A stretch of DNA of 56,301 nucleotides from a virus: positions 1 to 56,301 of the IMG/VR virus record IMGVR_UViG_3300044684_000298. The stretch is one strand, 5' to 3'. Every line of letters begins with the position of its first letter. Position 1 is the stretch's first letter. Shown here piece by piece: positions 15,425 to 37,279 of this stretch. The position numbers and the translations under genes are program-made. The notes beneath the pieces were generated by a model that saw only the letters and a program-made list of their open reading frames with translations, ran no database searches and was not told the DNA's origin.

Positions 15425-15966
15425 TCAACCTGTCCGAACTCGCGCTCCGCGAGGCCAAGGCCAAGGTCGAGATGGAAGCCGTGCAGGCGTACGCCGTGGC
15501 CGCGAGGGCCCGGTACGAGGCCGCCCGCGACGAGGTACAGGCCGCGCTCGACAGTGACGCCGGCCGGGGCGTGCGGGCGTTCGGGTCGATGCTGCCCGAC
15601 GGCCGCCCGGTTGTCCGAGTCGCCTTGTCGGACCCGGACCCGGCGCCGGTCGTCACCGACCCGGCCGCGTTCCTGGACTGGGTGCGCGACACCTACCCGA
15701 CCGAGCACCGGGTCCGCGAGGTCCGCGAGGCCAACGCCGCGTGGCAGGCGGTGCTGTTCAAGGCGATGAAGAAGCTCGGCAAGCCGGTCGACCCGATGAC
15801 GGGCCAGATGGTGCCGGGCGTCGAGATCCCGACCGAACGCAAGCGCGGACACCGGCTGACGTTCGAGAACGACGGCCACGCGCTCATCACCGCGGCACTG
15901 CGCGAGGGCATCGTGACGCCGGACGTGCTGCCCGACCTACTGACGCCCGAGGACGACGCGGCCTGA
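15421..15966 (+). CDS. Conserved phage-type early protein of unknown function
   Basis: 181 residues; GTG overlaps the previous stop (GTGA). N-terminal helix rich in Ala/Glu/Lys (LREAKAKVEMEAVQAYAVA), central segment DPAAFLDWVRDTYPTEH, and a C-terminal block TERKRGHRLTFENDGHALI. The organisation recalls small proteins encoded before phage recombinase genes, but I do not recognise the family. Confidence 0.7.
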   Translation: MINLSELALREAKAKVEMEAVQAYAVAARARYEAARDEVQAALDSDAGRGVRAFGSMLPDGRPVVRVALSDPDPAPVVTDPAAFLDWVRDTYPTEHRVREVREANAAWQAVLFKAMKKLGKPVDPMTGQMVPGVEIPTERKRGHRLTFENDGHALITAALREGIVTPDVLPDLLTPEDDAA

Positions 15967-31437: not shown

Positions 31438-32298
31438 CTACGACTTCCGAGGCGACCGCTTCGCCGCCTTCTTTGCTGGCGCCTTCTTCGCCGCCCGCTT
31501 CCCGGCCGGGGCCTTCTCCGGGTGCTCTTCCCGGGCCCGCGCCAGACTCGCCTCCAATGCCGCCATCAGATCCCCCGCAGCCGGCGGGAGCACCCGGCCG
31601 GCCTCCGGCGCCGGCAGGCCCTTCGCCTTCGCGTCCACCAGGTCCATGAGCGCCCGGCTGTACTCGTCCCGCTCCTGCTCCATCTCCCACCCGGTGGACA
31701 CGGCCTGCATGAGCTGGAGCGCCAGGTCGATCTCCGCCCCCGAGGGCTCCTGTGCGGCCTCCGGGGCGACGCCTCCGGGGTCGCGGACCTCGTCCGGCCA
31801 CAGGAGCGTGGTCATCGTCATGGTTCGCCCCCGGACGCCGAGGAGCACCAAGCTGTCGCGGGTGCGGAGGGCGGTGCGGGCGACGGCCACCTGCTCCGAG
31901 CGCAGCAGCGCCTCGCGCAGGAGGGCGTACGGGCGGCTGAAGGGCGCGGACGCGCCGAGGTAGTACGTGCGGTCCCAGAAGATCGGCTCGACCTGGCTGC
32001 GCGGGATGAAGCCGAGCACGCGGATCTCCTTGGTGTCCGGCGTCGGCAGCTGGGACAGGTCGTCGTCGGTCAGGACCAGCATCCGCCCGTCCGGCAGCTC
32101 GTAGCCGCGGGCGATCTCGTCCGGCCGCAGCTCCCGGCCGTCCAGGTCGCAGACGTTCCTCTGGCGTACCCGGCCTCCGTCGTCCGCGTGCACGCGATGC
32201 AGGGGCACGCGGTGGTGTTCGGTCGCGGCGTGCACGGTCACCGGGATCGTGACCAGGCCCCAGCTGATCACCTTCCGGGCGATGGTCGTGATCGCCAT
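31438..32298 (-). CDS. ku: Ku-type DNA end-binding protein
   Basis: 286 residues. The N-terminus AITTIARKVISWGLVTIPV, the segment LDGRELRPDEIARGYEL, PIFWDRTYYLG and TRDSLVLLGVRGRTMTM are the bacterial Ku beta-barrel/bridge motifs, in order. The last ~40 residues are Lys/Ala-rich (KRAAKKAPAKKAAKR), as in actinobacterial Ku C-terminal tails that bind DNA and stimulate the ligase. No LigD gene is seen, so host LigD would be the partner. Family knowledge: mycobacteriophages Omega and Corndog encode Ku to close short-overhang genome ends. A similar role is inferred here. Confidence 0.92.
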   Translation of the reverse strand: MAITTIARKVISWGLVTIPVTVHAATEHHRVPLHRVHADDGGRVRQRNVCDLDGRELRPDEIARGYELPDGRMLVLTDDDLSQLPTPDTKEIRVLGFIPRSQVEPIFWDRTYYLGASAPFSRPYALLREALLRSEQVAVARTALRTRDSLVLLGVRGRTMTMTTLLWPDEVRDPGGVAPEAAQEPSGAEIDLALQLMQAVSTGWEMEQERDEYSRALMDLVDAKAKGLPAPEAGRVLPPAAGDLMAALEASLARAREEHPEKAPAGKRAAKKAPAKKAAKRSPRKS

Positions 32299-33668: not shown

Positions 33669-33983
33669 ATGGCTGATCGTACGGGCGACACCAACGCCCG
33701 CCACACCCCCTCGACCGCGACCCGCCGCGCCTGCGACCTGCTGCTCGCCGTGCTGCTGCTGTGCGTCGCGTTCCACCCGCTCGCGCACGCCGCCGGCCCG
33801 GCCGCGACCGCGACGCTCGGCCTCGTGCTGCACGCGGCCGCCCACCACCTCGGCTGGCTGATCGCCGCGGCTGCCGTCATCGTCGGGCTGCGGGCCGTCC
33901 CGCACCCCTCCGCCCGCCTCCTGGAGCTCCTCCTCGGCGCGTGGGCCGTCCGCCTCCTCCTGCGCGGGACGGCGGCCGCCTGA
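33669..33983 (+). CDS. Small membrane protein of the transfer module (Spd-like)
   Basis: 104 residues, ATG behind GGGAGG. Hydrophobic segments at ~21-40 (CDLLLAVLLLCVAFHPLAHA) and ~50-70 (HHLGWLIAAAAVIVGL), plus a third weaker one. Stop overlaps the next ATG by one base. In Streptomyces conjugative elements, small membrane spread proteins occupy this place next to DUF2637 and tra genes. Confidence 0.6.
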   Translation: MADRTGDTNARHTPSTATRRACDLLLAVLLLCVAFHPLAHAAGPAATATLGLVLHAAAHHLGWLIAAAAVIVGLRAVPHPSARLLELLLGAWAVRLLLRGTAAA

Positions 33984-34948
33984 TGTACGGACGCATCCTG
34001 CGAGCCCTCGGCCACCTCACCGGCGCCATGATCCTCGTCAGCGCCGGGTGGACCGCCTTCAACACCATCGCCCTCATCGGCACCCGCAACCCCCTCTCCT
34101 ACGGCGTCGCGCTCCTCTTCGACGCCGCCTGGCTCGTCGCCGTCGCCGTCCAGCACGAGATGCGGTACCGCGTCGACCTCCGCGCCCGCCTCAGCATCGT
34201 CGGCTGGGCCCTCACCGCCCTCGCCGCGGGCATCAACGCCGCCAGCGAGGTCCTCGGCCGCCACAGCATCCCCGTCGCCGTCGTCGCCTCCCTGGTGCCC
34301 CTGCTCGCGAAAGTCTGCCTCGCGCTGAAGCTGTTCACCGAGGCCAACAGCGCCGAAGCGAAGACCCGGTTCACCGCCCTGACCCTGTCCTGGCACGACC
34401 AGGTGACGGAGCAGCGGATCGGCGAGGCCATGGCCGCCCAGTGGCACCGCGTCGAGCGGGCGCACGAGAACGCCGACGCCCGCCGCCTCGCCGCGACGCA
34501 GGCCGACCGGCTGGCCAACCTGGAGCTCACCTCCGGCACGGAGCAGCCCGTCACGCGCGTCGCGGAGCCTGTCGTGTGGCAGCCCCCGGCGACGATGCCG
34601 CTCGCCCCCCTCTTCCGCGAGCCGTCCGTGCCCCCCGACGAGCCTGCGCCGACGCCCGAGGAGACGCCGCGCGAGGCCGTGATCCCGCCGCGAATGCCGT
34701 TCGGCTTCGCCACGACGGTCCACGACGCGACCACAGCCGGAGCACCGCTTGTGGCCACGACGGTCCACGACGCGACCCCGGACCCGCGCACCGCCGCCCT
34801 CATGGCCCGCAACGCGGCGCGTTCCGCCGCCCGCCTCGCCGCGATCGAGGAGATCCGCGTCGAGGGCCTGTCGATCGAGGACGTCGTCGACAGGTACGGC
34901 GTCACCGAGAAGACCGCGCGCCGCTGGATCCAGCAGGCCGAGCGCTGA
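33983..34948 (+). CDS. DUF2637-type membrane protein with C-terminal HTH
   Basis: 321 residues, ATG overlapping the previous stop (TGATG). Four transmembrane helices in the first ~115 residues (GAMILVSAGWTAFNTIALIG, YGVALLFDAAWLVAVAVQ, LSIVGWALTALAAGI, VAVVASLVPLLAKVCLAL). A long helical/Pro-rich linker has the exact repeat ATTVHDAT, and a C-terminal HTH-like end reads GLSIEDVVDRYGVTEKTARRW. DUF2637 proteins are typically encoded just before the FtsK/Tra gene of AICEs. Likely a membrane partner of the DNA pump; the HTH may touch DNA. Confidence 0.75.
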   Translation: MYGRILRALGHLTGAMILVSAGWTAFNTIALIGTRNPLSYGVALLFDAAWLVAVAVQHEMRYRVDLRARLSIVGWALTALAAGINAASEVLGRHSIPVAVVASLVPLLAKVCLALKLFTEANSAEAKTRFTALTLSWHDQVTEQRIGEAMAAQWHRVERAHENADARRLAATQADRLANLELTSGTEQPVTRVAEPVVWQPPATMPLAPLFREPSVPPDEPAPTPEETPREAVIPPRMPFGFATTVHDATTAGAPLVATTVHDATPDPRTAALMARNAARSAARLAAIEEIRVEGLSIEDVVDRYGVTEKTARRWIQQAER

Positions 34949-34984: not shown

Positions 34985-37117
34985 GTGGCCACGCTCACCG
35001 CGCCCCCGCCCGTCGACCTGACCAAGCCCACCCACGACGAGCCCACCGAGCCCACCGAGCCGGTGGAGGCCGTCGACCGGCCCGACAACCCGCTCGCCGA
35101 CTGGCTCACCGTTCCGGACATCCCCGTCCTGCCCCACTGGGCCCGCTCCTGGCAGGCTCTCGGCGCCAACACCGGCGCCCTGTGCCGCCTCGGCGTCTGG
35201 CACGCCAAGTACCACGGCGTCCGCCTGCCCAAGTACGGCGCCAAGACCGCGTGGCTGGCCTCCCGGGGCGCGTTCCGCGCCTCCTGGCGACTGTGGCCCG
35301 TCCTGTCCGCGCACGAGCACACCAAGACCGTCAAGGCCCTCGCGGCGCAGCACCGGGCGAAGCCCGATGACGTCGCCCTCGCTGTGGCGCACCAGGACGC
35401 GCACCGGGTCCGTACCGTCGCCCGCCGCTGGCGGTTCGGCGCGGCCGCGCTGACCGCCGCCGCCGTGGTGACCACCTGGTCACTGGCGGACGGGTGGTGG
35501 AAGACCCTGCTCGGCGGTACCGTCCTCACCCTGCTCACGGTCCTGGGCTGGCACGAGGACGCCCGCATCCTCGACCAGGCCGCGCCGCCCCTGCGGCTCC
35601 AGATGAACGCCGAGCACCTCAACGACGCACTGCGCGCCGCCAGCCTCCTCAAGCCGGGGAAGGGCGACGACCCGGGCCCCAACGTCACCCTCGTCATGGG
35701 CCCGCTCCGCGACGGCAACGGTTGGTCGGTCGTCTTCGACCTCCCCCGAGGCGGCGGAAAGACCGCCAGCGACGTCCTCGCCAAGCGCGAGGTCCTCGCC
35801 CACGAACTCGGCGTCGACGAGATCCAGCTCGTCATGGCCCGGGTCCGCGCCGCCCAGGGCGGCAACGCCGGCCGCGTGTCGATGTGGGTCGCCGACGATG
35901 ACCCGTACCTCGCCCCGCCCGTGCCCTCCCCGCTGGTCAAGCTGGACACGTTCAGCATCTGGGACCCGGTGCCGTTCGGGCAGGACGCCCGCGGCAACCG
36001 CATCAGCGTGCCCGTCGTGTGGCAGTCGATGTTCTTCGGCGGCCTGCCCCGCCGCGGCAAGACCTTCACCCAGCGCCTGCTCACCGCCGCCGGTCTCCTC
36101 GACCCCTACGTTCGGCACTACGTCGCCGACTTCAAGGGCGGCCAGGACTGGATCCAGATGCGGCAGGTCGCTCACCGCATGGTCGTCGGCGCGGAGGACG
36201 ACGCGATCACGGCCTTCAAGGCCATGCTCAAGGAGCTGCTCGCCGAGATGGAGCGCCGCTTCGCGATCCTGCGCGGCCTGCCCACCTCAATCTGCCCCGA
36301 GGGGAAGCTGACGCCGCAGATCGTCATGAAGTACGGCCTGCCGTTCATCTTCCTGACGGTGGATGAGCTGCAAGAGGCGTTCCTCGCCATGGACGACAAG
36401 GAGCGGGAGGACGTCGTCGACGACCTGGCGCGGATCGCCCGCCGCGGCCCGGCCGCCGGCTTCATCTCGAACTACGCGTCGCAGCGGCCGGACGCCAAGT
36501 CGGTGCCGACGAAGCTGCGGGAGATCATCACGATCCGCTGCTGCACCCAGGTCACCGACAAGACGTCCAGCGACATGGTCCTCGGCTCGGGCAAGGCCGC
36601 GATGGGCGCGGACGCGTCGCTGCTGTCCGAGGATCACGTCGGCGTGACTGTGCTGGTCACCGGTCCGGCGTCGTTCGCGACGGTGAAGAACGACATGCTC
36701 ACCACGGCCGAGTTCAACGCCATGTGCGCCAAGGGCCGCGCCCTGCGGAAGGCGGCGGGTCAGCTGTCGGGCGACGCCGTCGGTGACCTCTCGTCGCTCG
36801 CGGACGAGCAGCAGATCACGATCCCGCCGATCGTCACCGACGTGCTGGAGGTGATGCGGCACTCCATCCGCATGTTCACCACCGACCTCCTCGCCGGGCT
36901 GGTGAACCTGGATGAGGACCGGTACGGCGACTTCGACCCGGAGCGGCTCGCCTCGGAGCTGGAGAAGGCCGGCGTCCGCCGGACGTCCCGCCAGGTCAAG
37001 ATCGACGGGGAGAACCGGGCGGGCTACCAGCGGCGCGACATTGAGGACGCGGTCCCGGTCGAGCTGCTCGCCCCGCGCCCGGTAGAGCCCCCCGCCTCTA
37101 CCGACCCCGCTACCTGA
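34985..37117 (+). CDS. FtsK/SpoIIIE-like DNA translocase (TraB/TraSA-type transfer protein)
   Basis: 710 residues, GTG behind CGAAGGAA. N-terminal ~150 residues soluble, then two transmembrane helices (~152-186, GAAALTAAAVVTTWSL and TLLGGTVLTLLTVLGW). The motor domain at ~240-600 has Walker A GGLPRRGKT (352-360) and Walker B FIFLTVDE (454-461). LPRGGGKT at 253-260 is a second P-loop-like stretch. The last ~60 residues (DPERLASELEKAGVRRTSRQ, ENRAGYQRRDIED) look like the winged-helix DNA-reading domain. Streptomyces TraB proteins move double-stranded plasmid DNA between mycelial cells using 8-base repeats; this is the closest match by layout. Confidence 0.88.
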   Translation: MATLTAPPPVDLTKPTHDEPTEPTEPVEAVDRPDNPLADWLTVPDIPVLPHWARSWQALGANTGALCRLGVWHAKYHGVRLPKYGAKTAWLASRGAFRASWRLWPVLSAHEHTKTVKALAAQHRAKPDDVALAVAHQDAHRVRTVARRWRFGAAALTAAAVVTTWSLADGWWKTLLGGTVLTLLTVLGWHEDARILDQAAPPLRLQMNAEHLNDALRAASLLKPGKGDDPGPNVTLVMGPLRDGNGWSVVFDLPRGGGKTASDVLAKREVLAHELGVDEIQLVMARVRAAQGGNAGRVSMWVADDDPYLAPPVPSPLVKLDTFSIWDPVPFGQDARGNRISVPVVWQSMFFGGLPRRGKTFTQRLLTAAGLLDPYVRHYVADFKGGQDWIQMRQVAHRMVVGAEDDAITAFKAMLKELLAEMERRFAILRGLPTSICPEGKLTPQIVMKYGLPFIFLTVDELQEAFLAMDDKEREDVVDDLARIARRGPAAGFISNYASQRPDAKSVPTKLREIITIRCCTQVTDKTSSDMVLGSGKAAMGADASLLSEDHVGVTVLVTGPASFATVKNDMLTTAEFNAMCAKGRALRKAAGQLSGDAVGDLSSLADEQQITIPPIVTDVLEVMRHSIRMFTTDLLAGLVNLDEDRYGDFDPERLASELEKAGVRRTSRQVKIDGENRAGYQRRDIEDAVPVELLAPRPVEPPASTDPAT

Positions 37118-37222
37118 CGGCCCGGCCGGGGCCCGCTACCGGTACCCGCCTAGTAGACGGGCCCCGCTACCCCGGTAGCGGCCCCGGTAGAGGCCGCTGA
37201 CCAGGCAGGTAGCGCCGGTAAA
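37078..37222. other. Cluster of CCCGGTAG/CTACCGGG-type repeats (clt-like transfer site candidate)
   Basis: CCCGGTAG occurs exactly at 37078-37085, 37171-37178 and 37183-37190. Inverted or partial copies are CTACCG at 37098, CTACCTG at 37110, CTACCGG at 37136, CTACCCC at 37167, AGGTAGCG at 37208 and CCGGTAAAG at 37214. The cluster spans the 3-prime end of the FtsK/Tra gene and the 160-base gap after it. Known Streptomyces clt loci consist of 8-base TraB recognition sequences next to the tra gene; this motif differs from the GACCCGGA type. Function is inferred. Confidence 0.65.
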
Positions 37223-37279
37223 GGGGCCCAGAGCGGCCCCGCGATCACCCCCGTACCGCCCCGATTCCAGGGAGACACC

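Follow-up and report, generated by a model that had tools for sequence, protein, structure and literature searches.

The repeat cluster lying across the stop codon of the tra gene in the window (the whole stretch of DNA analysed here, the 56.3 kb virus record IMGVR_UViG_3300044684_000298) is very probably a clt-type loading site of a TraB-type double-stranded DNA conjugation module, with a TraB specificity of its own, carried by a temperate phage of the Streptomyces type. The initial annotation had drawn a parallel with Streptomyces plasmids, and the clt-like layout is indeed that seen in plasmids, but the element carrying it is a phage and not a plasmid. Integrase, SSB-like, DnaB-like, terminase and structural genes are present, and the window probably represents a temperate actinobacterial virus with a Streptomyces host. 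Both ends of the window (positions 1 and 56301) fall inside an apparent tape-measure coding sequence, and at the lengths tried they share no exact repeat of 20 bases or more. The window thus resembles a nearly complete, circularly permuted genome that lacks a few bases where its ends would meet. The features annotated are listed in Table 1.

Table 1. Features annotated in the window, with the individual repeat copies of the cluster at the tra stop codon.
Feature	Coordinates	Strand	Basis
Ku-like DNA end-binding protein	31438..32298	-	PF02735 E 2e-41
DUF2637-like region and helix-turn-helix (SpdB-like), gene 5' of tra	33761..34948	+	PF10935 E 0.0012, under cut-off
tra, FtsK/TraB-type DNA translocase, 710 aa	34985..37117	+	PF01580, PHROG 1358, pSVH1 TraB identity
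C-terminal winged-helix domain of Tra (predicted), related to the DUF3631 (RepAM) C-terminal part	36827..37063	+	PF12307, hhalign, AlphaFold
clt-like GTAGNGG cluster, both orientations, across the tra stop codon	37082..37224	.	Repeat scans, relatives, shuffles
GTAGAGC, degenerate last base	37082..37088	+	
GTAGAGG (top strand CCTCTAC)	37095..37101	-	
GTAGCGG (top strand CCGCTAC), 12 bp past the 37095 copy	37107..37113	-	
GTAGCGG (top strand CCGCTAC)	37133..37139	-	
GTAGCGG, left arm of palindrome CCGCTAC-cccg-GTAGCGG	37164..37170	-	
GTAGCGG, right arm of palindrome CCGCTAC-cccg-GTAGCGG	37175..37181	+	
GTAGAGG	37187..37193	+	
Degenerate copy CTGACCAGG of the CTGACCTGC box common to many clt regions	37197..37205	+	
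GTAGCGC, degenerate	37209..37215	+	
GTAAAGG	37218..37224	+	

A total of nine full or nearly full GTAGNGG copies were found in the cluster, five of them on the plus strand and four on the minus strand, around a tra stop codon at 37115-37117. Six exact copies occur within 160 bp; when the whole window was shuffled 200 times with dinucleotides preserved, no shuffle had more than three in such a stretch, and two reached that number. The cluster is real and far from chance, and outside it no more than two copies fall within any 350 nt of the window. The initial annotation had reported three exact CCCGGTAG copies together with inverted ones over the stop of the pump gene, and these were recovered at 37078, 37171 and 37183, along with eight occurrences of GGTAG across 37081-37212, half of them inverted. 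Its choice of CCCGGTAG as the repeat unit did not hold, as the flanking CCC is not conserved and the unit is better described as GTAGNGG. The two checks that it had proposed came out in its favour, the motif being infrequent elsewhere both in the window and in relatives, and being kept wherever the C-terminus of Tra is conserved.

Relatives were collected from a viral scan (22 loci) and a genome scan (48 loci). Of the usable loci, 66 encode a Tra at least 65% identical to that of the window, and every one of them has GTAGNGG sites around the tra stop, although these loci are related to each other and do not represent 66 independent events. The mean over the 66 loci is 5.0 sites per 350 nt at the tra stop versus 0.24 in the rest of the loci, and in 55 of them the cluster at the tra stop exceeds every other stretch. 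An unbiased count of 7-mers ranks TAGAGGG and GTAGAGG first, with 179 occurrences of GTAGAGG in 64 loci (2.3 expected) and 175 of TAGAGGG in 62 loci (0.9 expected). The conserved unit derived from 338 sites is GTA(G)NGG(G), where position 4 is G in 87% of the sites and position 5 is A in 59% and C in 25%. Recurring spacings are 12 bp between neighbours on the same strand, 11 or 13 bp between opposed pairs, and 31 and 22 bp between distal pairs. Some members retain only one to three exact units (one in L045, two each in L037 and L039). No GTAGNGG was found in five loci with a Tra of 31-41% identity.

The elements that carry the cluster are of several kinds. Twenty of the 66 loci, like the window, have a large terminase in the flank, belonging to at least six terminase groups, and are phages; another 24 are integrated AICE-like elements with an integrase and no terminase, two of which (L019 and L073) are short contigs; and in the remaining 22, some of them short, neither terminase nor integrase was detected. 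The cluster is also present in a Streptomyces decoyicus plasmid with a 14.6-kb unit that lacks phage genes. Because it occurs in phages, integrated elements and a plasmid alike, the cluster follows tra and not the packaging genes. The deposited sequence of this plasmid (L025, NZ_CP107886.1) is 29,140 bp long and holds a 14,570-bp unit twice, head to tail, with the same genes and proteins in each half; the dimer may be real or may have arisen during assembly.

The motor part of Tra is readily recognized, with a PF01580 match that exceeds the Pfam cut-off (E 4.8e-6), a match to the FtsK/SpoIIIE-like PHROG 1358 (E 6.7e-29) and 31% identity to the TraB of pSVH1 over residues 206-594. Sequence matches in the PDB include TcpA (6o1w) and FtsK of P. 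aeruginosa (2iuu), and the Walker A motif GGLPRRGKT at residues 352-360 is invariant. The DUF2637-like gene in front of tra, whose true start probably lies further in than annotated, has counterparts in pFP11, pSTS2 and other plasmids, where DUF2637 genes likewise precede tra. No transfer genes were established in the window besides these two.

All 57 family members scanned have a match to PF12307 (DUF3631) in the last 80 or so residues of Tra, with a best E-value of 2.7e-6; the Tra of the window itself scores 1e-4, just under the Pfam cut-off. A profile comparison by hhalign between the Tra family and the C-termini of RepAM gave an E-value of 7.4e-7 over 79 columns with a score of 42, versus a best score of 24 in 100 column-shuffled controls. 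The AlphaFold model of the Tra domain has a pLDDT of about 90-98, and the models of the Tra and RepAM C-termini display the same order of elements, namely three helices, then a beta hairpin and one more helix. On the strength of these models, the C-terminus of Tra is predicted to be a winged-helix DNA-binding domain. Most of its best-ranking matches in the structure library are to winged-helix proteins, although these matches are weak (Zur, 4mtd: Z 6.0, rmsd 3.6, 85 aligned); the gamma domain of FtsK is absent among the matches listed, which is uninformative either way, and a Foldseek search with the RepAM C-terminus returned no significant match. By hhalign the Tra C-terminus is clearly similar to those of three further groups of TraB (E-values from 1e-8 to 2e-10). 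The initial annotation had proposed a new TraB specificity tied to the winged helix of the pump, and the comparisons of sequence support this, except that the helix belongs with those of the DUF3631 (RepAM) type and has no detectable relation to that of pSVH1 TraB (hhalign E 0.064). The C-terminus of pJV1 Tra likewise shows no detectable relation to the DUF3631-type winged helix by hhalign. As neither plasmid has a detectably DUF3631-like C-terminus, the DNA-reading ends borne by the TraB motor look to be of at least two or three unrelated kinds.

A comparable arrangement is known from the KOPS and SRS sequences of FtsK and SpoIIIE, which are short G-rich motifs read by the C-terminal winged helix of an FtsK-family motor. 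KOPS are, however, polar and scattered over the chromosome, whereas the window has one compact cluster with units in both orientations.

The position and form of the cluster match the clt sites of pSVH1, pJV1 and pWTY27, in line with the parallel to Streptomyces plasmids drawn by the initial annotation. The regions of these three types were used as positive controls in an identical scan for repeats after tra, which recovered five copies of GACCCGGA between +15 and +106 past the traB stop in pSVH1, nine of CCGCACA between +5 and +122 past the tra stop in pJV1, and seven to eight of TGACACC after tra in the pWTY27-type relatives. The pSVH1 system of Streptomyces venezuelae resembles the window in its homologous motor and in having repeats of both orientations directly after the tra stop, and differs in its repeat, an 8-mer in place of GTAGNGG. 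The clt of pWTY27 comprises 16 bp inside traA and the adjacent 159 bp, and TraA footprints both this region and its TGACACC repeat (PMC3583192). It resembles the window in starting inside the 3' end of the transfer gene and extending for about 160 bp with direct and inverted short repeats; on the other hand its repeats are TGACACC and CCCGCCC, and the Tra C-terminus of its relatives is of the pJV1 type, with no detectable relation to that of the window. Other TraB plasmids and AICEs carry CCCGCTC, AGCGTGCTC, CGATAGC, GACCTGGA, CGTCAGTA or CTCCCTGA after tra. The position of the repeats is thus constant, at or just past the 3' end of tra, while the word varies together with the kind of C-terminus that Tra has, GTAGNGG being present in all 66 loci with the closely related Tra and in none of the five with a more distant one. 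A loading site read by Tra predicts this, the same place with a different word that tracks the C-terminus, and this pattern argues for the clt reading.

A further element of these regions is the CTGACCTGC box. In many TraB elements with differing repeats (pSVH1, pFP11, pSG5 and others), the sequence CTGACCTGC(A/G) was observed towards the far end of the post-tra region, on the same strand as tra. It lies at about +75 to +150 past the tra stop in L024, L025, L075, L079, L080, L081, L128 and L132, and also occurs inside the repeat clusters of RepAM genes. It was not seen after the tra gene of pJV1. Within the Tra family of the window, (G/C)ACCTGC was found in 53 of 59 loci against 0.19 expected per 350 nt. 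The box is perhaps the site of a host factor.

RepAM is the pMEA300-type initiator of AICEs (PMC3218068), and in five AICE loci a DUF3631 gene (PF12307 E 6e-63) bears a second cluster, of 9-10 exact GTAGCGG copies, at its 3' end. In the loci collected, 6-11 exact copies, mostly with a CTGACCTGC box, were found past almost every RepAM gene whose 3' end is included. Clusters of 6-14 exact copies at RepAM 3' ends precede xis/int and are widespread in Streptomyces (L034 15502-15720, L041 16325-16510, L101, L107 and others). A pattern built on the box was matched in 73 of 246 genomes of the genus to which L041's genome belongs, mostly at RepAM genes; as these loci were picked by the pattern, box counts among them are biased. 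Some RepAM clusters were observed to contain divergent box pairs about 150 bp apart. A divergent RepAM gene in L042 has, in place of GTAGCGG, eight copies of CCGTCCC(A) in its own last 200 bp (15740-15930). The RepAM clusters are likely the origin iterons of the AICEs. The idea that they are second clt sites was dropped, since they are found with unrelated Tra types.

Because about ten GTAGCGG copies stand 3' of RepAM genes in AICEs, the cluster of the window might itself be a replication origin whose repeats are iterons for an initiator, and the GTAGNGG core and CTGACCTGC box common to both kinds of cluster speak for this. We nevertheless consider it unlikely, as the two clusters follow different genes. 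Those of RepAM track Rep whatever the Tra, co-occurring with Tra of the pJV1 type, the L078 type and the CTCCCTGA type, each with separate post-tra repeats of its own; those of tra track Tra whatever the Rep, and RepAM was found in the examined flank in only six of the 66 loci. The units also differ, RepAM clusters being almost purely GTAGCGG and tra clusters mainly GTAGAGG. In the window, moreover, the gene upstream of the cluster is tra, the C-terminus of Tra is the only DUF3631 match among the window proteins scanned, and a DnaB-like helicase is encoded. A packaging (cos or pac) signal of the phage is more improbable still and the least credible of the alternatives weighed. The large terminases would fit it, lying downstream of the cluster in those loci inspected, but the cluster occurs equally in the terminase-less integrated elements and the plasmid, the terminases that follow it are of diverse groups and in both orientations (L018), and that of the window is about 4 kb away.

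The remaining possibilities, an operator cluster for the downstream genes, an attachment site, or an RNA or terminator structure, are together only slightly less improbable than a packaging signal. Several of the arms do form inverted repeats, yet many units are direct repeats, of which RNA pairing needs none. The downstream genes vary among the elements while the cluster stays with tra, and scans gave no Rfam, promoter-like or terminator-like match.

The clt reading suggests how the module might work. The TraB of related systems is known to bind such repeats through a winged helix, to form hexamers and to move double-stranded DNA (cited in PMC3583192 and PMC4170104). By analogy, the C-terminal winged helix of Tra, encoded just 5' of the cluster, would bind the GTAGNGG repeats, several Tra subunits would assemble on the cluster, and the resulting hexameric FtsK-like ring would drive unprocessed phage DNA into the next compartment or an adjacent cell, crossing a septum or a contact between hyphae. 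We infer each of these steps, as well as the gain to the phage: such viruses may also spread like conjugative plasmids.

The RepAM proteins are replication initiators without an FtsK motor, but they resemble Tra in their homologous winged helix and in the core, box and own-gene 3' position of their repeats. Tra and RepAM thus seem to rely on winged helices of a single kind, the target in either case lying where the protein's own gene ends, and the likeness of their repeats is probably due to the homology between the Tra winged helix and the DUF3631 C-terminus. A bolder proposal is that a widespread group of temperate Streptomyces phages are functional TraB/clt hybrids, combining mycelial spread of double-stranded DNA with virions, and that RepAM and Tra have exchanged the winged helix and its GTAGNGG target as interchangeable cassettes; we hold the two parts jointly to be possible, at somewhat below an even chance.

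While clt sites with plasmid-specific repeats are already known, a TraB/clt module in temperate siphophages, the GTAGNGG specificity, a DUF3631 winged helix common to Rep and Tra, and a CTGACCTGC box recurring in clt regions with otherwise different repeats were not found in the literature searched, outside which most subscription papers lay. The points of interest are the temperate-phage setting and the sharing of a domain between Rep and Tra. One simple rule, that the short repeats which a C-terminal winged helix should recognize are clustered where the gene for that helix ends, predicts sites in plasmids, integrated elements and phages, and it yields many natural pairs of domain and repeat from which the recognition code could be worked out. 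The domain sharing suggests a role for the C-terminal part of DUF3631 and a way, open to testing, in which new specificities may come about. Should the phage module be functional, temperate phages of actinobacteria would have a second, conjugation-like route of spread.
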